From Branchiostoma floridae (taxonomy: Eukaryota; Chordata; Leptocardii; Amphioxiformes; Branchiostomatidae): 64,000 bases of DNA. The notes under the pieces are model-generated. The model was not told where the DNA came from, did no database searches, and saw only the letters and a list, made by a program, of their open reading frames with translations. Below are positions 837 to 56,775 of this stretch, in pieces. The first letter of the stretch is position 1, and each line of letters opens with the position of its first letter. The position numbers were made by a program, and so were the translations under genes. The DNA is taken from positions 22,189,089-22,253,088 of the forward strand of contig NC_049981.1 in assembly GCF_000003815.2 (NCBI RefSeq). The letters run 5' to 3'.

Positions 837-2775
837 ATTTTATTGCTCAACAATCGCACAGGGTACAATGTATGGCAATTGATAACAACTAATAGCTATA
901 CAGACAATAGTACTAAGAGGCTACATACAACCAACAACAAAACACATCGATAACAGTACAGTTATGTATGATTAATCTGGTCTCGCATTTGGAATACATT
1001 ATAAAGAAACTGGCCTACGTAGACGGATATGAGTTGAACATGAGAGCAATACATGGAAAATATCGCTTTCTGTACCAGCGAGAGAGATGTGTGTTTTGGT
1101 TCTAATATTCTTAAACAACAAAATGTTTCTCTCTCTTTACTGTAGGTAGGACATTTCATAACAAAGTGGAATTCATCTTCTATATTTTCATGACATGTAG
1201 GACACAGTCTCTGAGTGGCTGGTGTGTTACGGTGATGACCTTTTTCAATTTCTAAACAATGTGCACTTATTCTCAGTTTTATAATGCTGTATCTAAATGG
1301 TCTATTATGAACTGATTTGAGATATTCTTCCATACCAAAGTGTTTTTTGATTTTCGAATATGTTTTTAGTTTGTTGGCGCTTTTGAGCTGTTCCCTCCAG
1401 CCAGAAAGAAACGTGTCTTTTAGACGCTCTTTGAATATGTTCCCAAAATGTTTGGCATTAACAGCGGGGTTGAGCCAAACATTTTGGAACCCATGTCTGC
1501 ATAAAATGTCCTGAACGTGAGTAGCCCAGTCATGTTCTTCTTCGACTGAAGTGTCGTAAGCCTTTTTAACAATCCGATCATTTGGTAGAGTATGCAATCT
1601 TAGCCAGTATTTAATCAAATGTGTTTGACTGTCATCGAATAAAGGACATACTCCTAATTAATTAATGCACCTCTTACGGCGGCATTGACAGAGCTTTTCG
1701 GTACATGAAGTAAAATTTTGCAGTAATTTAAGAGTACGTATTCTAAGTCAGGTATTTCATATGAGATTTTTGGTTGTTCTATTGTTATATTCTGGTTCCT
1801 AAACAAAGTGTCTGACTGGTATATCACGTTCAGTTTGTCACTGTATTTCTTGAATCGGACAAGAATGGGACGAGTATAAATAGTCGAGGCTTCTGATATA
1901 TTTCCCAGACGAGAGACTCTAAGTATATCAATTTCTGATCCCAATATCGGGCTGAGGACTGTGGCTATAGATGTTCTAGTCGTTTCATTTTGACATTCCG
2001 GAATCCCTTTGAATATTAGATCTCTGCATTGTGCATTTATTCCAGTGAGCTCACTACAATAAAGTAGGATGGGTTTAACCAGACTGTTAAACAGATTAAT
2101 AGCTAGGGAAATCGAGGGGTTGGAATTAGATGACAAGAATGATTTCAATTTGAACGAGGCCCGTAGTGCTTTCAATCTTAACTGTTTTATGGCTCGACTA
2201 AAAGATCCTGAAGGTGTTATGTCCACTCCTAGGTAGGTATAAAAGTTTGTTATCTCTATATTTTGACCCTGAGATGTGAAAGGTGACTGTTTGTTATTGA
2301 CTGTGCGCCCATTTTTGGAGAAGATCATTACTTTTGTTTTGTTCTTATTGATTGATAGTTTCCACAGAGAGCAAAATTGGTCCAGTGCCCTCAAGCATTC
2401 TTTTAGGCCTGATTCTGATTTCGATACAAGTACAAGATCATCAGCCCAAAATATGCTGTTTACAGGAGTATCTTTTAAGAATAGGGAGTCACAAGATATT
2501 GGATTTAATAGGGCCGGGAAATTGTTAATATAAAGGTTAAAAAAAGGAGGGGGCTTATGTTACAACCTTGTCTTACCCCGCAGAATGACTGGAAGTAAGG
2601 TGACATGCCGTGTGGGGTTTTAACGCAATATTCTATGTTGTGATACATTGATTTTATAAGTCTAAAAAAGTTACCTCCTATCCCTAGAGATAAAAGTTTA
2701 TAGAATAGTCCGTTTCGCCATACCGAATCAAAGGCTTTTCGGAAATCCACGAAACATGCATATAGCTTAATTAAA
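785..2775 (-). mobile_element. 5'-truncated non-LTR retrotransposon (LINE) with RT and C-terminal Cys/His domain, frame-broken
   Basis: Three minus-strand reading frames belong to one element. Frame 2750-2505 carries reverse-transcriptase motif A (FRKAFDSVW) and the GVRQGCNISPLLF block. Around 2395-2460 the catalytic FWADD box is read, with Trp where Tyr or Ala is usual. Frame 2394-1654 continues through the thumb (KLSINKNKTKVMIF). Frame 1618-962 ends with a CPTCHENIEDEFHF-type Cys/His cluster typical of LINE C-termini. The frames are out of register, so at least two frameshifts or stops separate them. The 5' half, including any endonuclease, is missing. The 3' end in sense orientation is a CATT tetranucleotide array (plus-strand 785-836). 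The clade is not certain; CR1, L2 and jockey-like groups are all possible. A second fragment with the same kind of tail lies at 60893-61394. Confidence 0.88.
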
Positions 2776-5486: not shown

Positions 5487-8400
5487 CTGTGGAGGGATGA
5501 AAATCATCTTTAGATGACGAAAGGTGTAATGCAAGATCATATTTTTCATGAACGTAAGTTAAGCAGAAAATACCTTAATGCTATTACACTTTTATAGTAC
5601 TACCAGCCTTCTTTGTGCAAAAGAAGACATGGACAATTCAAGTTTACTTTGGGACAGTTGGAATTTCTTTGGGGGACACTCCTGGGACAATAAGGAAAAA
5701 AGCTACTTTTGAGGCCTATTACAATTACTGGTGTATTGAGGTTTTCCTCCTAGCTCTTTGCCTTCATGATGTATGCCTCCCGTCATCATCATCATCGCGG
5801 GCTGCTTGCCCGGACCCGGTCCACTCTCTCCTTCCAAACGTTTCTGTCCCCCATAGCGTTCTTAAGATCCTCGACCTGCAACCCATACTTTCACCCAGAC
5901 CCAAGAAAATAAATAAGTGCCAGGCCTTACCTCAGAAAAGGTCCCTTTTGTTGTCAGGATGTTGTAGACGAATCCTATGGGAATCATCACCATGGAAGCC
6001 AGCGCCATCAGCCAGCCAATCGCCTCGCCCCACGGCGGGTACGTGTACGTCTTGTTGTACGTCGGCCTCTGGTACTTCACCAGAGAGAAGATGAAGATAC
6101 CCTGCAAGGTCAAAACTTAACTTGTTTATGTTTGCTAATGTTTGTATATCATATCTGGAAACCACCTCACAACGGGTTTGTGCTGAAGAGTACAAGCTGC
6201 ATATCCAGACAGTCCTAAACAATAATTTAGAGAATCCACAGAGATTTTGCAATACGGGTAAGTCACCAGGTAAGAGTGTTTCACACTTTCTAACTACGCA
6301 AACAACACTCATTGCAAGTGGTACTAAAACAAGTAACCCAAAATAGAAGATACTGTATATGAAGGATGAAACCTAAGACTAAGATTAAACGCGAGCTGCA
6401 GGTATACGAGTGACACGGTGTCACTGAACACGCTATAACGTGGCCTTGACGTGCACAGGAGACATGCTGTGACGGTCGTTGTAAGGTGCTATGTAGGACA
6501 CTAAGAATGGCAGTGTCTTTTATTGCATCCAGACAGTATTAAGTGGGGACAACTGACTTTACAAATAGTTTAATATGTTTATTTAGTCTTTCGGTCTTTT
6601 GATTATATAGAATGACAAAGCCTGTGAAATGATCTTAGTCTTAGTTTTGAAGTTCGTGCATCGCCTATCAACTGTCACTCACCATTGTCATGATGGGTGT
6701 CACCACCATCCAGCAGATCTTGATCCAGATGATGGGCCGGAAGCCGACCATGCTTTTGATGTCCCAGTAGAACTTTGTGCTGCCTACAAAAAAATAACAA
6801 GGTTAGATATTTCCAGGTGTGTTGGTATAGTCCAAATGTCTAGATGATGATTTTGGACGTTACACAGAATAGAGGACTAGAGGTAGTGTTAATTCTATAG
6901 CTACCTTGCTATCAAATACTTAAGGAACAGCTACATGTACCATGAATTGCTAGTAACAGACAAAAAAAGAATTGTAGGAGTTAGTATTGTGTGAAAAAAA
7001 ATATGTGCAAAGGGAGTTTACAGATTTCTATAGACATTTACTGACTATATTTGTCTTAATTTCCTCTACTCTACAAATTATGTGTGATACAGCTGATGAT
7101 TCTCGCTTGCCAAAAATGTATATGCCCAGTTATTTCCAATAAAGTAACAAGAAAACTGACAGCTCAAGAAACGGTGTCATACCAAAGTTCCAGCCGACAC
7201 GATCGCCCAGTCCGTAGAACCACCCAATACAGATGGCCTGGAAGAAGGTCACCCACAGCAAGGTCATTCCACTGGCCGAGTAGTTGTCAAACAGTTGGAA
7301 GACGTACATCCCACCCTAAGCATAGGGAAGATGGAGAAATAGGTTATTAACATATACATATTACATAAAGGTCACATAGATTTGCATATTATGTATATGT
7401 ACAATCATCATTACAATGTCTCGCAGCCTAACAGAGGGTTCGTACTATGACGCTTTAAAAAGTAAATAGTGTAGGCCCCTACGTACACCTAAAGTCTTGC
7501 CAGTATCCATCTTGTTTTCGCTCCAGTTTTCTCCTCTGACCTCCTAGTTTTTGCAGCCTGCATGTGGCTGGATCCCCCTTGCAGCCGTTACTAAAAGCTT
7601 GCAAGCACAAGGCATCCTTGTACCAGTGATGAGCAGCTAATCTCTCTCAAATTCTAAGTGATTCCGCATCAGTCATTATCCTATCCTGTTCTATTCTCCA
7701 AGCAGAGGTTGAGTTGCGTAGATATAATAGTCTGGATTTTCACCGGCTGTCTCCTCTTGGGTAAAAATCCCGACTACTATATCTACGCGACTCAACCTCG
7801 GCTTGAAGAATAATCCTGTTCAATATTATCCCTCAGAAACATATTCTTTAGCAAACAGAAGCTGCTTACCTGGGTACAGAAAGCGAGTCCAATGAGAAAC
7901 TTCACGAAGCAAACCACAGCGATGAAGATCTCTCTGTTGTGCCCACGCCTGAGGATGTGCGGATACATGTCCTGGCACGACGTCACAAAACCCTCCACCC
8001 CGCAAAACTGGACAACAGAAGAAATGTTGAAAGGTTCATTGAAGACAAATTATTGTCTAAATACCCTCCTGGTGAATGGAATCGACTCTATATCCTCTGT
8101 TTTAAAAAACCAAGTATTTTGAGGTATCAAGTCAACGGACAATGGTTTAAAAAATTTTAAAATGCAATATTGTCAATTTGAAAATATTAGTACTGTAATG
8201 ATTTTGAAATGCTTACTTGAAGTCAGATCCTTTATTTGCTTGGAGATTACTTCCTTGGTACTTAACCCTATAGCTAGTTCACCTTTATCCATTGACTTGA
8301 TATCCCTATGTACCCAGTTCTTAAAAACAACAGATAGGTAACTTCGCTGATAAAGATGAACTAGCGTTACATTTTTCTAAAAAAAACAAAAAACTGTAAG

Positions 8401-11400
8401 CCCGTCCTCCTTACCTCACTGTCCAACCCCAGCAGCAGCACCATGAAGAAGAAGAGGATCGCCCAGAGGGGAGACAGGGGCATCAGGGTCACGGCCTTGG
8501 GGTACACGATGAACACCAGGCCAGGACCTGCAGCATAAAGAACCAATCACATCACTGGTATCAAAAATATATAAAGTCAGCGTTTGTATTACATGCAGTC
8601 TGGTTGGTTGGTTGGTCATAAGTAACTCATAACCTTAAGTTCTTAATTTGTCTTGTTACTGAGACTTCTAACACGTTGCTTGTATCAATGCAAGAATATA
8701 ATGCTGCCTCAAGATTACATTGTTTTAGAATTTCCATTTCACTCACTGTTTAAGAATTTTCATCATTTCAAGTTATTATATTGAACACATATTTTCATCA
8801 ATTTCAGGTCAAGAAGCTCAGATTTTTTAAACGGACATACAGAGTGAATTTTTCTTTTTAGCCCAACAAGCATTGCCAAATTTCTGTCCTGGGATGGTGG
8901 GACAGGTCCTGGAGACAGGCCTTAAAAGTCAGTGATTGTGTAACATTAAAGCATGCAGGGTGGTGGGTTGGTTGGCAGTGGTCAGTCACAAGTAGCTTAT
9001 AACTTTGAAGTTCTTAATTTCTCTTGTTACTCTTCTAACAATATCTTTGACACAATTTGTTCCCTCCATTGCAATGCCAATCATTTGTGCATAGGACCAA
9101 GCTCAGCTAGATGAGATTCAGGGATAGTTTGTTAATTCAAGCATAGCGGGGAAAGGTTTAGAAATCCCAGTCTGTTTACCTGACTCTGCCACATCTGCAA
9201 CGGACACTCCCTGTTGGAGCGCCATGTTACCCAGAAAGCTGAAGATGACGATCCCAGATAGAATGCTGGTGCCAGAGTTCACGCAAGCGAAGACAACAGC
9301 ATCCCTAAGAACACATTAGACATGTTCTCAGCAATTCCACTGGATATTTCATCATCAGATTCAGAGGTTCCCTTTGAACCACAATGGTTAGTAAGTTTCT
9401 GGAATTCTGCAACACTTGAAATGGTGGAATTGCTGACAACAAGTGGCAAGAAAGAGATAAGAAGAAACAGGTATGAACCTTATACCCTAATGAGAATAGG
9501 CGGTGCATACTGCAAGTGAAACGTGCATAAACTGCTCAAACACTTAAAGGATATAACCTTGTCAACCAAGGAGCTGTAAAGGAATTTATAACATGTAGAA
9601 AAATATCTACTGGAGTCATTCTAGGGACTGCTTTCCACAAATTTCTTCAGAAGTGGTGGAGAAGACAAAACCCATCGCTTCCTCGTGTCCCCATCATCAT
9701 ATTTTTAGCGTGAAAGCACTGGCATTTTTGGAAAGATAAGGCTTATATAGTAACGCGCTGCAAATGAAATGGAAACTATATAGATACAGCTGTGAACTTC
9801 AGACTCAGAAGTAAGTGTTAGCTCAGACAACATTCAAAGCAAGTGTTAATTGAGCACTGCAAGGTTGTAGAAGACACCCAAAACTGCAGCTAGAAAAAAG
9901 CAACACCCTGTAGAATAAAAAGTGAGAAGAGCAGCGAGATTTTCTGCTTTCTATACACCTAAACTCCCCAAAATCGGCACCCTGTTGGCAGGAAACGACA
10001 TCAGTATACTGTACCTGATTCTGCAACCTCGCCCACTGATACACCCTGCTGCATGGCCATGTGGCCCAGGACGCTGAATATCACAATGCCCGACAGTAGG
10101 CTGGTGCCAGTGTTCACAAAGGCGAACACTATGGCATCCCTGTGGGGGCAAAAGACCGTTGAGTTTGGAGTTAGTGTAGAATCTTCACTCAACAGGAAAA
10201 ACATCTAAGGTTATACACCTCTGCCAACAGGCTGAATAAAAGTTAAAAACTTGAACTATGCGGCTCCGGATGTCTTTAATACTGAGGGATGACTGCAGTG
10301 TGCACAATGTCAGTAGCTTGAGGAATGAATCCACTCTACTATATATCTATACACCTCAGCGTTGTAGACTGTGCAAAGAGTAGCTAGTGCTATGCTGCAG
10401 CACAGTGTGAACCAGTCAGAATTGCCCTGAGGAAGGTGACAGACGATCACCAAAACGTCAGTTGAATAAAGCCCTTGGTTGTGTACAAAGGATCTTATTT
10501 TGTGACTTAAAAACCTGATGAATCTATTCACGTGAGCAAAGAGCATACTCAAAAGCTGTGCAGATGTCAATAAATCATAACATTTGTATATAATATAGAA
10601 TGTCGATGTAGAAAGGAGACAGATTTGTGCATGAAAAAAAGGACCAAACATCACCACCTGGAAACTTACATGTGTCTATTGGCTACAGAATACAAATATA
10701 GGCAATTGAGGAGTTAGTAGAGGTAAGAGCACATCCCTGTGCACTGAAAATAAATTGATCTTGTAAGCAGTTGTTAGTATGACGACGTGGAGTGTGCAAT
10801 CAGAGGACAGAATATCTCAAGTATTATGCAGACTACTACTTCAGCACCACGGACAGCTACAACACATTACAACACAACACAATACAAAACAACACGATAC
10901 AACACAAAAGACACAACACATGATCATAAGAAGTGCCTCAATGATGCAAGGTTATTAAATACTCAAATACTCCCAGCAAAGTCTTTGCCATTGCAGTCTA
11001 ACAGGGGTGGACCCAATGGACAGAGCCGCATGGAAGCACGATGTGAAGACTAACTGACTGCTCTCTACCTGTCTCAGGGATCCTAGCAGCAGTATAATAA
11101 AAAAATGGACACTACTACTACTACTTCTCCCTGTGCTCTGATGAAATAGATACTCACCATACTTGACTCAAAGAAGTCAGAGAAGTGTAAGATTTTCATG
11201 CTATTTCACCATAACCGTGTAAGCTAATGATAACACAGTTGAAGTCCCTATGAGTGGACATATCTGTTGTAAATTATAGATTGTAAATTGAAGAATTATT
11301 CTACCAACAGATTGTTAAGTTTAATAATACATTCTTTTCACCTGTGGCAATTGTTGTTGAACTTGTTGTAGCTGCCCAGGGCGATGAGAGATCCCAAACC

Positions 11401-14400
11401 GATGGAGTAGGAAAAGAACACCTGAGTTCCTGCATCCATCCACACCTGTAAAGGTATTAAATGCGATACAGAATTGACATAAGATCAACTGTAGTGCCAC
11501 GTGGCGTCACAGCAGTGTATTTGGCCCTCAACCCAGTGGTCCTGGGTTCGAATCCTGTCATGTTTCCAATCTTATGCCCATGAAAATGGCACTTTAAACA
11601 ACTATACTCCCTCCACCCAAGTGTATAACTGGGTACCTGACTTAGTTTTTAATGTGGTGGTCGTAGGGCACCCATCGGAATCATAAGAGTTGACCTTAGT
11701 TGTGTCTTCCTCGTTAAGCCAGGTAAAATTTTGACTTGATATCCCTAAATACCCTGTTTTTAAAAGCAGCGGATAACGGTTAGCCCACAGATAAAGGTGA
11801 GCGAGTGTTACCTGTGGGTCTCCCTAAATACCCTGTTGTTTAAAAGCAGCGGATAAAGGCTACCCCACGGATAAAGGTTACCTGTGGGTCTCCGAGCCTG
11901 GTTATGTTGGGTTTCAGGTAGAACTCCAGGCCGATGTCGGCTCCCTGCAGCGTCACCCCCCGGATCAGTAGGATAAACAGCACCACGTACGGAAACAGCG
12001 CCGTGAAGTACACAACCTGAGAGGTTCGGGAAAAAAGAAAGTCAGTCAAGTCTACTACACGTAAGTGCGCCTCCTGCCAGGATTTAAGGAATCTGTAGTC
12101 TGTGATTGATAACTGGTATGTCGTCTTTCATTTAAGTATATCAATCTGTATCCATTGTATTTGATATGTCAGGATGAAGGCTGGTAAAAGTGTTCTCACC
12201 TGTTCCCTCGCCCCTTCCATTGGAGTGGTGAATATTAATGAACAAATGAACAAGAAAACTCAGGAATACTGACTGACAAATTTTATGAAGTCATAGAAAA
12301 TAAGAAAAGGCACCTGAATGAAACTTGAATGATGAAGTACACAGTGAGAACACTAACTTAAAAGCATGTAATTGCAATAATGATACTTGACAATAAATGG
12401 TAATGTTAGGTTGTTGACTTAGAATATAAAGGCTTTGGGTTCAAATACCTAGCAAGTTGTAATGTGCTACAGACATCCTTTGGGGAGGCACATAACACCC
12501 ATTTCCTCACTTGAACCATTGTCCATATACCACTATATATATCACACGACTTTCAGGAAGGGTGAGTCAGCCTGTAAAGCTGCAGTACCTCAAAATACTG
12601 CTAAGGGGCCCCAAGTCTCCATATTTCTTCGGGACCTCAATAACTGCCCAAATGCAAAAATTCATACAAATCCATCTTAGGGATAGTTATAGGTGTGAAC
12701 ACACAATACATGTATATGGCTCCCTTCGGTCAGCAATGACCATTTCAGCCCAAGAGCTTTGGCTATTGCGCACAAAAACAACCATAAACAGTATCCCCAT
12801 CAAAGGTGAACCTCCTTTCCCAAAGGTAATCAGCTGGAAAGGAGTACCTAGCTTTGGCTAGAGCATCTTCTTGGATGGGATGTAGAGGAGAGGTCCCATG
12901 TCTGAGGAGAGCCATGCCTCAAGCACACACCACACTTTGATATCAAGAATTTTTGCATGCCCACATCAGTTTTGGGGTGCCCAAGGGTTGTTATTCATAG
13001 AATCAAATCAGTGTGGCCTTTTGCAAACAAACATTTCTATCAGTAGCCCTTACCCTGCCAGTGCTCTTGACTCCCTTGAAGATGCAGAAGTACACGATGA
13101 TCCAGGCCAGCAGCAGACACAGGATCAGCTCCCACTGCATGGAGCCAGGCTGGTCCAGGCCACCAGAGATCTGCAGTACACGGTTGCTGGGCAACACAAG
13201 CAACAGATCATCAAAAAATGTGCCTACAGAAAAAAACTTTCATATCATATTTTTTCCCATTTTTTCCATGTGCTTCTTGAAGTTCCTCATTGATTATGCA
13301 GATCTAGTCCTCATTTGCATAGCATTCATATCATTGTGTACATCTTTGCCTAAGCTACCTGCATGTCCAAAATAGTCGACATCCAGCATTCCTTTCTTCA
13401 GTTATCCTCTTTGGAATGTTATGACAAAAATGCCCCTGCAGGTCCACAATTCAATGTTAGCGGACTGAAACTTGACCCACCTTGTCCTGAGGTCAAAAGC
13501 TGTTCGGGACAAGAGATACATTAAAAAAAACTGCAATGGATATTTCATGGAGGTAAATATCACAAAGACCGACGTACTTCCAGTATTCCAGGGATGCGGC
13601 AATCCGAGTTGCGTTCTCATTGGTGGCGTTGGGAGCCACAGTTGTCATGGTAACGTTGAGGAGCGTGCTATTCATCGTGCTGTTCTCCGCCTTCTTTATC
13701 TCCTCATCTGACGCAATGCATCTTGGGATAGAAAAATATTGACATCAATTTTATCATCCAGAGTTCTATTAACCTTCTAGTAATATTGTAGTTTTCATAC
13801 TATAGCTAGTAAGTACGAAAAATCGTTATGATTTTCTTTACCTTGTATGAAATATTTTCATATATACTCATTCATGGTGACTGTATATATAATACAGAAA
13901 ATATTTGAACATCAAAATGTGTACCGCACAGTTCGGCCGTCTTTCTTTGTTTATCAGAACGCCTTTAAATGCTTATCTAAATGGACTGCGGAAAGTGATC
14001 TAAATGTACTCTATCTATTGAAGAAGCCGCACTTAAGTCTTACTTAAGAGACTTTAGAAGTGGATGGCGTATGCAGAACAGTATGTATAAATCTAGATCG
14101 TCTCGCAGACATCTTGTCCCCAGGCAATGCACCGTCACGGTATCAAAACCAAAACGGTCTATCGGTAAATGCCTGTCTTTGACTGTTGCTCTTACACAAC
14201 CGTAGCGGCGCCACGTTTTCTGGGCTTTTTATGTTTGTCTATATCACTCAGAAAATGCGTTGCCAAGTGGGGTATTACCTCAAGTTTCATAGTACAATAA
14301 AAAGAAGTACTTCGTATGCGATCTGTGCAACTTTGTGTCTCAAGTATCACTCGTTCTCATTGAAATGTCGAAAATGGCATTTTTTGGTCGAAAAATAAAT

Positions 14401-17400
14401 CGGCTTTATTTTCAGTGAAAACTACGTTGTTGTTTAGGAAAATTCCTCTTTTAACCATAGCCAAAAAAATGGCAACTTATCATTTTCGGTCCCATTGGTA
14501 ATGCATTACAGGGCATGTAACAAACGTTACCGGTATAAGCGAGGCTCGTACAATCGACGGTGAATAAATCTATGATAATTAAACTCCCATGACCTCTTGC
14601 ACGCGGACAAGGTAACACAAAACGTTCCTCAAAAAAAAATGGCAAGAGATCGATAAATGTTGCTTATTTTGTTGTCGGAATATTTTTAACCAATGATTGG
14701 AATCCGCGGGCATAATAGAAATGACACAAGATAGGAATGTGTGTCACAAAGTCAGCCTACATACTACCACAGGGGCCACAATGTTAGAATTACCCTCACA
14801 TTCCCAGAAATTCAATATTTGTAAACAAACGGAAGTCGGGCGAACGTCGCCCGAACGTTGCGAACGATAAAAAACTAGGTCTGTGCTCGCCTATTGGTCT
14901 TCAATCGTTGGATTGACGCAAGACTATTGACCGATACCCTTGCGAGGTACGCACGATTTGCACGCACGATCTGCGACTCGGTAACGAGCTCTGCGATCTC
15001 CGAGATCTCCTGCGACTTGTCGCTTATGTTAAGAACATGTTTCGCTGCACCGCGACCGTCGTAAGATTCCTGAAAATTGCCGACGATCCCTAAAAATCGC
15101 AAGATGATCGTGAGAACACCGGACGTCTTACTCACGAAAATGTCATTTAGAGCTCGTAAACTAGTCTTCCGATCGAATCGCGCCTAATGTGAGGCGGGTA
15201 TTAAGAACATGTTTCGCTGCACCGCGACCATCGTACGACTCCTGAAAATCGCCGGCGATCCCTAAAAATCGCAAGATGATCGCGAGAACACCGTACGTCT
15301 TACTCACGAAAATGTCATTTAGAGCTCGTAGACTAGTCTTCCGATCGATTTTCGCCTAATGTGAGGGGGGTATTATAGTCGTAGCTATTCCCCAAAATCA
15401 AAGCTGTGATTTTTTTTCTCGGGCGAGGCTGAAAAATTACTCACACAAGTTTCAAGTTCCGGCAAGCCAAGGACGTTGGACAAGCCCAGCACCAACAGCT
15501 TTTCAATATTGACTAGGTTCATTTATGCGCACAAATACGATCTCCACGACATTAGAGATCCGTATTGAGAATCGCGTATCAGACACCTCCCGTAAAAAGG
15601 TTCGTATTTTATCGATGAAATTCGTTGAACGTTCTGTCAAATCTCTCAAACGCATCGACGCCGCCAGCGAAGACATCTTCAGTGACACGAGTGATTCCAG
15701 AAGTCATGCGAAGGAGGTTACTTGAGGACACGCACCTGTCTGTGTTCCACCAGTTGCCGCACGTGGCCCAGGGCAGCTCGGACGTGAAGGAGGCGAAGAA
15801 GTAGTGCAGAGCCCAGCCCATCACCATCACGTAGTACATGTTCAGGAAGCTCACAATCACCATGGACGCCATTCCGATTCCTGAAGAACACGATAAACTA
15901 ATTATTAATCACCAAGCAGATGCCATAAGATAGTATCAAAGCTGGCCAAGAAGTATAGCCGGTCAAAGGGAGTCAGACGGTCGTATACACACTCCTAGGC
16001 CGGCTTCACTCCTCTGACAGCTTTTGATACTAATTTATGCTACCGTAGGATCTGCTTGAAGATTACAAGTTATGTCAATTGCAAACTACAAAGGAGCAAA
16101 GTATGGTTTTTAACGATCGTTTGATCTATACACAGCGCCAATTGTCCAACAAGATCCATGTTTTGCTCTCCCTTTCATCGAAATACGACAGCGACAGTGT
16201 TTAGATTTTATAAAATAACCAACTAAATAGTCGCGGCAACACAAAACATATAAGTTCGAAGCACAAACATGTAACGTTACCAGCTAAAAAGATTTTGGAA
16301 AAAAAAATTGCTTAAGAGTCAAGAATAGCTTGGATGTCAGAAATATTAGGCAACGATAAATAAAAAAAGAAATAGTTTCACCCCATGCAAATATTTTCAC
16401 GAAAATGGAACGCTTAAAGTTTGCTGGCAGTTCATTTCAATAATGTTGTCATTGTGAGAGTACCAATGCATCTTTTGAATAGCCTGAGCATCATCCTCCG
16501 TAGTAACCGCTGGCTCACGACTTTCGCTTGCTAACTTAGCAACTGATGATACTCAGGCTATTCAAAAGATGCATTGGTACTCTTTTGAACACATGTAGTT
16601 GCAAATACATCGTGGTGTGTGAAAGACGGATTGTTTGAGTTGTGTCCTATTCCTGTAACCTTTATCACTTTAATTTCTGTTGCCAGCGTGTGACGACTTT
16701 GTTCAACCGCACTTTTTCTCTACTTCTGTGTAACTAAAACTTTTTGACAAGGACACTGAAGACACACCCTCGCTGTGAATGTAAAAAGTCACCCAAAGTC
16801 TAAAACCGTACGTTTACGCCTTGTGCTGTAATCCCATGCCTATCATGTCTAAATGCCGAGGTAGTATGTTTCTTAGCACCTGTCCTTCGATGATCGGATA
16901 TGTATGCTCGTTCAGCCGCACTTTTTCTCTACTTCTTGTGTAATTTTAACTTTGACAAGGACATTCAAGGACACACACCCGCTGTAATTCTGAAGTCTAA
17001 AACCGTACGTTACGCCTTTTGGTGTGATCCCATCCCTATCATGTCTAAATGCCGAGGTAGTATTTTTCTCAGCACTTGTCCTTAGATGAGCGGTTACGTA
17101 TGCTAGTTCCCTACTGTCGCCATCTGTAACTGTCACCCGTGGCTGTCACCTGCCACCTGTGACGTCATCAATGACGGACAAGGTGTGACGATTCTCCTCC
17201 CCTTTGACGCCGAAGGTGAGAATGACGGACCATTTGGAGACGCAAGAATGATCGCTGCTCTATCACGAGCGGTTATCAGACGTCTCCACCTGTTCCCAGC
17301 TTCCCTTATCTTGATAGAGAAAACCGCACAGCCTGTAGCTCGCATTGGAATGACAGACAAGCCGCCCAAAGTTCTCCCAGTAGGAGCTAACGCGCGAGCG

Positions 17401-55896: not shown

Positions 55897-56073
55897 GCTT
55901 CTTCAGCGGTTGGAGGAGGCAACCTTCGCTGCTGTCATTCTGTTTGGACGGGAGGACTGTTTTTGTAATCGTCTTTAGCAGATCTGCCGATTCAACCCGA
56001 ACTTGTGGACATTCCAGGACATCAGTGGGCATTTCAACTCCTTGTAAAAATCCCCGCTACCATCGGCCTGACC
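55895..56073 (+). promoter_or_regulatory. Possible 5'UTR acceptor and leader of the PH-domain gene
   Basis: A long pyrimidine-rich tract ends TTTTTCTGATAG at 55896, a plausible 3' splice site, so the transcript may have an upstream non-coding exon. An in-frame TAA at 55966-55968 shows the leader cannot extend the protein before the ATG at 56074. Confidence 0.4.
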
Positions 56074-56775
56074 ATGAGTCTACTGGAAAAACTTTTCCAC
56101 CTCCGGGGCCTGACTGGTAACCGCCCCACCATCGACCAGCACGGCCTGTTCACTAGCATTCAGATGAGCAAGAAACTGCTGTCCGAAAAACTGGCGGTGA
56201 AGGAACCGTGGAGGCTAAACAAGAAGCCGCACCAGTGCAAAGTTTGTCTGTACACGAACGACTCTAGCCCGTTTCTGGTCTGTTACAACAGTTCTGGGCA
56301 CAGACCCAGGGCAAGGATTGAGCTATACGGGACCAAGGTGGTCACTTGTGGCGACAACTCATTCAAACTGTGCAACGAGGAAGGTTCTGAGGTGTACTTC
56401 TTCCAGACAGACGGGAGGTCGAAAAGGGACGAGTGGGTGAGATCACTGAAGGAACAGTGCGAGAGGGAGCTCAGTCCTGATGGAGAGGAGTCGGTTCGTC
56501 TCAGCAAAAAGATCATGGAGGTTCGTCAGCGCGTCAAGTCGCAGAAAATAATGGCTGAGCTCGAGAAAAACAACAACAACACGAGCAGCAAGCCTCATAA
56601 GACATTATTGCCGGTCACTCCAGAGGATGGCAGACAAAGAAGCGTGCCACACTTGAAAAAGAACGCCAGACTCGCCAAGCGGCGGCCTCATATCGAAAAG
56701 GCCAAGAAGGAGGCGGCACTGGCGACCAAAAGCTTACCGTTGTCTGAGTACTTTGTGAGCGTGCCTGACTCGTAA
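56074..56775 (+). CDS. Single-exon PH-domain protein with basic C-terminal tail
   Basis: 233 residues. The first ATG after an in-frame stop has a good ACC ATG A context. Residues 22-127 look like a pleckstrin-homology domain: HGLFTSIQMSKKLL, ARIELYGTKVV, FKLCNEEGSEVYFFQTDG, then the C-terminal helix KRDEWVRSLKEQCE with the hallmark Trp121. PH domains bind phosphoinositides or proteins at membranes. Residues 137-166 are charged and may form a short coiled coil (RLSKKIMEVRQRVKSQKIMA). Residues 194-213 are Lys/Arg-rich (LKKNARLAKRRPHIEKAKKE) and could be a nuclear or membrane-contact signal. No enzymatic domain is seen. The frame has no intron, so it may be a retrocopy or a gene with only non-coding upstream exons. 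I do not recognise an ortholog. Confidence 0.8.
   Translation: MSLLEKLFHLRGLTGNRPTIDQHGLFTSIQMSKKLLSEKLAVKEPWRLNKKPHQCKVCLYTNDSSPFLVCYNSSGHRPRARIELYGTKVVTCGDNSFKLCNEEGSEVYFFQTDGRSKRDEWVRSLKEQCERELSPDGEESVRLSKKIMEVRQRVKSQKIMAELEKNNNNTSSKPHKTLLPVTPEDGRQRSVPHLKKNARLAKRRPHIEKAKKEAALATKSLPLSEYFVSVPDS

Follow-up and report, generated by a model that had tools for sequence, protein, structure and literature searches.

A tandem pair of candidate mutually exclusive TM7 exons in a GAT-subfamily SLC6 transporter gene of a lancelet

The window, that is, the whole 64,000-nucleotide stretch of lancelet DNA analysed here, carries on its minus strand the coding part of an SLC6 (SNF, PF00209) transporter gene (5352-25961), whose joined exons form one uninterrupted reading frame with a Pfam SNF match. 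The gene model, built from the coding exons joined at their borders, comprises 14 coding exons per isoform and encodes 636 amino acids with either of two alternative exons, 9a and 9b. The SNF domain runs nearly from end to end (profile positions 1-523 of 524), scoring 744 bits with 9a and 742 bits with 9b. Exon numbers are those of the initial annotation, and the model therefore has no exon 7; the coordinates given there for exon 8 were right, whereas its rank was not, six rather than seven coding exons preceding it in the 14-exon model. Using a GAT1 sequence as the tblastn query, most exons were found in collinear order from 25.97 to 5.93 kb on the minus strand, and exons 4 and 15 were located by reading the sequence. 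Each conserved part of GAT1 was matched once at E < 1e-5, and only the segment of residues ~316-360 was matched twice. Exon 12 (7183-7315) is 133 nt long and includes about ten residues without a counterpart in TauT and CT1; its donor scores lowest of the 36 SLC6 donors compared, and the end of this exon may need RNA evidence.

Among solved proteins (PDB chains), the isoform containing 9b is nearest to TauT (717 bits), CT1 (716 bits), and GAT3 (698 bits), whereas glycine carriers reach at most 540 bits and monoamine carriers at most 536 bits, against up to 717 bits for the GAT/TauT/CT1 group among the 60 of 76 matches listed. On these similarities, the transporter is assigned to the GAT subfamily of SLC6. 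The wording "vertebrate SLC6A8/GAT-type gene" in the initial annotation was not borne out, as the protein resembles TauT, CT1, and GAT3 to about the same degree and the genome is amphioxus-like. Elsewhere in the window, a domain scan of ten open reading frames gave any match in four of them. Two open frames downstream of the gene (965-2559, minus strand) have reverse-transcriptase-type matches (RVT_1, 8.8e-10, above the cut-off; zf-RVT, 8.6e-4, below it) and appear to be remains of a LINE-type element, and an open frame on the plus strand (55969-56772) matches a PH domain with 25.7 bits against a curated cut-off of 25.1 bits and may represent an exon from an adjacent gene. In the intron after exon 3, a 172-nt unit occurs twice in tandem with 93% identity (15029-15372), and the intron after exon 11 contains an inverted repeat (7692-7812) with 53-nt arms (89%) separated by 15 nt, resembling a small foldback element.

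The segment matched twice by GAT1 corresponds to exons 9a (10015-10139) and 9b (9180-9304), both on the minus strand, both 125 nt long with AG/GT borders, and separated by an intron of 710 nt (9305-10014, minus strand). They lie between two constant exons on the same strand, namely, exon 8 upstream (11342-11445, 104 nt, the seventh coding exon of the model), which ends after two bases of a codon, and exon 10 downstream (8415-8527, 113 nt). The phases of the two exons are identical (2 in, 1 out), the acceptors read cccccacag|GG in 9a and gttcttag|GG in 9b, and the donors read CAG|gtacag and CAG|gtaaac, respectively. In a self-comparison the two copies match over 130 nt at 75% identity, with similarity stopping 2-3 nt beyond the exon borders; within the exons, 92 of 125 nucleotides are identical and 33 differ. 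A tblastn search of the window with 9a recovered 9b at E 6e-19 and no other match below E 0.3. In terms of SLC6 topology, the encoded segment is TM7 followed by the first half of extracellular loop 4 (EL4), and the earlier assignment as TM7 with its flanks is corrected accordingly.

The reading frame permits one copy at a time. Inclusion of 9a alone or of 9b alone leaves the frame open and yields a complete 636-residue transporter. Because 125 nt is not a multiple of three, double inclusion or double skipping leads to an early stop: with both exons present the frame ends at codon 382, the eighth codon past the split codon that ends 9a, and with neither the stop comes at codon 369, where exon 10 ends. 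These results bear out the initial annotation, which had described two 125-nt exons of equal phase lying 710 nt apart (coordinates, strand, lengths, and phases are all correct), a stop eight codons on when both are included, a stop ending the next exon when both are skipped, and a full transporter from either copy alone. In a survey of human mutually exclusive exons, 377 clusters (60%) hold exons of a length not divisible by three (PMC5740500). The same survey considers paired similar exons for transmembrane helices highly unlikely to be cassette exons, since using both or neither flips the membrane side of all later sequence (PMC5740500); this argument applies to 9a and 9b too.

The differences between the copies are distributed as expected of coding sequence under constraint. 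The 33 nucleotide differences fall 6, 2, and 25 on codon positions 1, 2, and 3, and of the 41 whole codons 14 are identical and 27 differ, 18 synonymously and 9 nonsynonymously, in agreement with the earlier count of nine residue differences among otherwise mostly synonymous changes. The dN/dS comparison that had been proposed as a check, carried out by Nei-Gojobori counting (S = 31.0, N = 92.0), gave pS 0.758, dN 0.111, and pN/pS 0.14, pointing to constraint on both copies. The pS value exceeds the range of the Jukes-Cantor correction, so that synonymous sites are saturated; simple binomial 95% bounds, for what is a short exon, place dS at no less than 1.24 and dN at no more than 0.19. In a neutral simulation that placed the same number of changes randomly on 9a in 20,000 trials, residue changes averaged 20.2 with a minimum of 12, compared with the 9 observed, and a stop codon arose in 49% of trials; the real copies contain neither a stop nor a frameshift. 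Given the saturated synonymous sites and the low dN, the duplication is old and purifying selection has acted on both copies, evidence against a dead exon and against an assembly artefact alike.

These values also bear on the proposal that the pair serves mainly to produce messages with both exons or neither, lowering transporter output through unproductive splicing, with the difference between isoforms being secondary. Both faulty messages do stop early, at codon 382 or 369 against 636 residues, and reads joining the exons were found for 83 of the 377 human frame-shifting clusters (PMC5740500). However, a copy whose role is to break the frame need not keep its amino acids, and the pN/pS of 0.14, together with the invariant residues retained in both copies, makes this proposal improbable in our assessment.

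The history of the pair was examined in the whole genome (513,431,437 bases in 431 contigs, with the window on contig C3). A search with the 9a peptide found at least 27 exon-9-like places, and the 9b peptide listed the same 27; of these, two are 9a and 9b themselves, 24 are exon-9-like places elsewhere, and one is a truncated second copy on contig C5 (L034). Exons 9a and 9b are mutual best matches genome-wide among the matches listed, sharing 34 of 43 residues, whereas none of the other rows compared (21 paralogue and 4 human, 25 in total) exceeds 27 of 43, the value for human TauT. An AG, 125 nt, and a GT follow one another at 22 of 22 paralogue loci tested (leaving aside L028, L032, and L034, and accepting the AG at any of six nearby offsets), which indicates that the 125-nt exon is ancestral. 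No second complete tandem pair of exon 9 was found among the matches listed or within ~1.5 kb of the other loci, 9a and 9b being the only complete tandem pair among the at least 27 places. In a tree of 26 rows (9a, 9b, 20 paralogues, and 4 human sequences, omitting L035 and incomplete rows), 9a and 9b form a sister pair with a support of 0.989, and their branch groups with human CT1, TauT, and GAT3 with a support of 0.863. Recruitment of 9b from another SLC6 gene was considered and rejected, since 9a is its best match among the matches listed and its sister in the tree.

Several partial copies were observed at other loci. In L016, a truncated second exon-9 copy (L016:1765-1839, G000:C5:24132713-24132787, also listed as L034) retains 25 codons with a GT after its 3' part and lacks the 5' part, ~140 bases after the normal exon 9 of that gene, and it illustrates the appearance of a non-functional duplicate. 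In L030, another SLC6 gene (G000:C11:7034750-7037872, reverse-complemented, 1684-1989), the 3' end of exon 9 seems to recur downstream in three partial matches free of stops, of which two are spaced 150 nt apart. L019 contains a 13-residue exon-9 match (E 0.04), and L017 a weak match (E 0.08).

Lancelet genomes are very polymorphic, and a tandem arrangement could in principle arise in an assembly when alleles or paralogous fragments are misplaced next to each other. Widespread presence/absence variation in lancelets, reported in PMC12373286, lends this idea some background plausibility. However, a difference at 33 of 125 sites is far beyond allelic difference, and the two copies cease to resemble each other at the exon borders. 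Moreover, a 1,151-base stretch has a single match in the genome, itself, and no other gene has a closer exon among the matches listed. An artefact is consequently given next to no weight.

The splice sites of both exons are intact. They were scored with a matrix built on 36 SLC6 sites of either kind, acceptor and donor (for each kind, 14 from this gene and 22 from exon 9 of paralogues), with the scored site left out each time, and both site pairs fall within the score range of the 36. Counted from the bottom, the acceptor of 9a ranks 34 (third-highest) and that of 9b ranks 12, and the donors rank 20 and 31, respectively. Within the gene region, the score of the 9b acceptor is reached by 3.0% of 1,261 AGs and that of its donor by 0.5% of 1,297 GTs. 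The 9a acceptor is preceded by CTAAC at -32 and by 41 AG-free bases; before 9b there are 20 AG-free bases, and no yTnAy site was found at -45 to -15. The 9b acceptor may therefore look weak, yet other exons of the gene share these traits: exons 11, 14, and 15 likewise lack yTnAy at -45 to -15, and exons 3, 4, 14, and 15 have AG-free stretches of only 15, 12, 12, and 19 bases, so that weak acceptor signals do not single out 9b. Two classical causes of exclusivity were ruled out: steric hindrance, which needs a donor and a branch point less than ~50 nt apart, by the 710-nt spacing, and U2/U12 incompatibility by the GT-AG borders of both exons, neither of which has the U12 donor consensus.

The weaker acceptor and branch region of 9b could mean that one of the two copies, with 9b the likelier, is a relic almost never included in transcripts, and the truncated copy in the C5 paralogue shows that such relics form. 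Against this stand the saturated synonymous sites with a dN of 0.11, the freedom from frameshifts and stops, the intact AG and GT, and a 9b donor ranking 31 of 36; the C5 copy, unlike 9b, has lost the 5' part of the exon. We hold a relic to be very improbable.

In isoform numbering, the replacements from 9a to 9b are I335V, F339C, T342S, L346I, V355F, H358N, M361L, G368A, and E369D, aligning in this order with GAT1 positions 321, 325, 328, 332, 341, 344, 347, 354, and 355. In GAT1, Asn327 is a ligand of Na+ site 1 and Ser331 is a chloride ligand (PMC10352132). The Asn and Ser aligned with them are kept in both copies, as the initial annotation had stated, and so are all eight columns found invariant across 24 other rows, 20 from paralogues (without L035) and 4 from human. 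Three of the nine substitutions lie no more than two residues from an ion ligand: T/S directly after the Na+ ligand, F/C two residues before it, and L/I directly after the chloride ligand. The I/V change lies earlier in TM7, and, by SLC6 topology, the remaining changes fall either toward the extracellular end of this helix or in EL4. Compared with the 25 other rows, Thr342 and Met361 are private to 9a and Asn358 is private to 9b, and neither copy is, by this alignment, simply ancestral.

Most of the nine changes are mild (I/V, L/I, M/L, E/D, and G/A), and the isoforms could for this reason be near equivalent. It is accordingly conceivable that 9a and 9b are both in use yet equivalent, kept by chance or for reasons of expression and with no functional tuning, a situation compatible with exclusive splicing. 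The mostly conservative changes and the untouched ligands favour such equivalence, whereas the Thr and Met of 9a and the Asn of 9b, found in none of the 25 other rows, speak against it, and the long retention of both copies is easier to explain by different roles. We consider interchangeability rather unlikely.

A candidate regulatory structure lies beside 9b. An inverted repeat on the minus strand has a 21-nt 3' arm (9320-9340) at -16 to -36 from exon 9b and a 21-nt 5' arm (9424-9444), with 19 of 21 positions paired and 83 nt between the arms; a TACTAAC read by eye ~84 nt upstream of 9b lies within the loop. The region 9305-9444 folds with -38.6 kcal/mol (z -2.39; 5 of 200 shuffles as good), and when the 710-nt intron was shuffled 300 times, the best repeat had 17 pairs and none reached 19. 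Six inverted pairs of at least 14 nt were found in 8400-11450. The site 9414-9444, which the 5' arm overlaps, can pair with 9320-9340 just before 9b (90%) or, over part of its length, with 8753-8773 in the next intron downstream of 9b (81%); the latter pairing may reflect a competing structure, and either may be fortuitous. A docking/selector pattern serving 9a as well was not seen among these six pairs, none of which links 9414-9444 to 9a. In addition, inverted repeats of 18-21 of 21 positions occur in 4 of 12 other introns scanned (the long first intron left out), and because of these the hairpin may be incidental; it is treated here as a lead, only its position beside 9b being special. The 125-bp hairpin element matches only itself in the genome, and as a single-copy element it was rejected as a recent high-copy mobile element; an origin from an old mobile element is compatible with the similar repeats in 4 of 12 introns.

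Collectively, we estimate a probability of about 0.85 that 9a and 9b arose by an old tandem duplication and persist as mutually exclusive exons within a single SLC6 transporter gene of the GAT subfamily. The reading frame, the splice sites, and purifying selection on both copies, as read from the DNA, give good support to the core of the initial annotation, two alternative TM7 exons used one at a time and both functional. In each transcript, exon 8 would be spliced to one of the two copies and that copy to exon 10, swapping TM7, with one Na+ site 1 ligand and one chloride ligand, and the first half of EL4, with the rest of the protein constant; the reading frame would act as a backstop enforcing the use of one exon at a time. 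With its CTAAC at -32, 41 AG-free nucleotides, and strong acceptor, 9a might be the default exon, and 9b might be the regulated one, its acceptor region being covered by a stable hairpin whose opening would take a protein or helicase. The nine substitutions are predicted to act on ion dependence, affinity, or gating and not on which substrate is carried. Taken together as an ancient lancelet switch of the ion-coordinating TM7 and half of the extracellular lid, which would produce two carriers differing in Na+/Cl- coupling or gating and chosen by opening the 9b hairpin, these elements form a quite tentative picture that we put forward with low confidence.

In SLC6 carriers, which remove neurotransmitters, taurine, and creatine, the effects of single residues on ion coupling are usually studied mutant by mutant. 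Exons 9a and 9b offer an apparent natural matched pair, with nine substitutions in the TM7 segment, the remaining protein equal, and both versions long retained. The closest solved relatives of the transporter are TauT (SLC6A6), CT1 (SLC6A8), and GAT3 (SLC6A11), and for none of these three did the literature searched (annotation databases lying outside its scope) describe an additional TM7 exon. No description of a TM7 exon pair in any SLC6 gene was found either in that literature, a scope that excludes annotation databases and most subscription papers and makes this weak evidence of novelty. Mutually exclusive exons in transporters are known; what may be new is their place, TM7 of an SLC6 gene.

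Among known systems, exon 4 of SLC12A1 (NKCC2), with its variants A, B, and F, likewise consists of tandem mutually exclusive exons in an ion-coupled cotransporter gene. These variants encode a transmembrane helix and alter ion affinity by kidney segment, as tested in cells. They differ from the pair described here in that the SLC12 family is unrelated, another helix is affected, and three copies are present. The families of SLC25A3 and SLC39A14 are also unrelated to SLC6. These two are further transporter genes with mutually exclusive exons (PMC5740500), and the third mutually exclusive exon of SLC12A1 is noted in PMC9741552. According to the latter paper, six of twelve families with convergently duplicated exons are ion transporters (PMC9741552), and the SLC6 gene would join these ion-transport genes in which duplicated exons arise repeatedly. 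NALCN has duplicated exons too, giving isoforms called calcium- or sodium-selective (PMC9741552; see also PMC3557258). However, NALCN is a channel in which the pattern of selectivity residues itself changes, whereas 9a and 9b keep the ion ligands and alter their neighbours.
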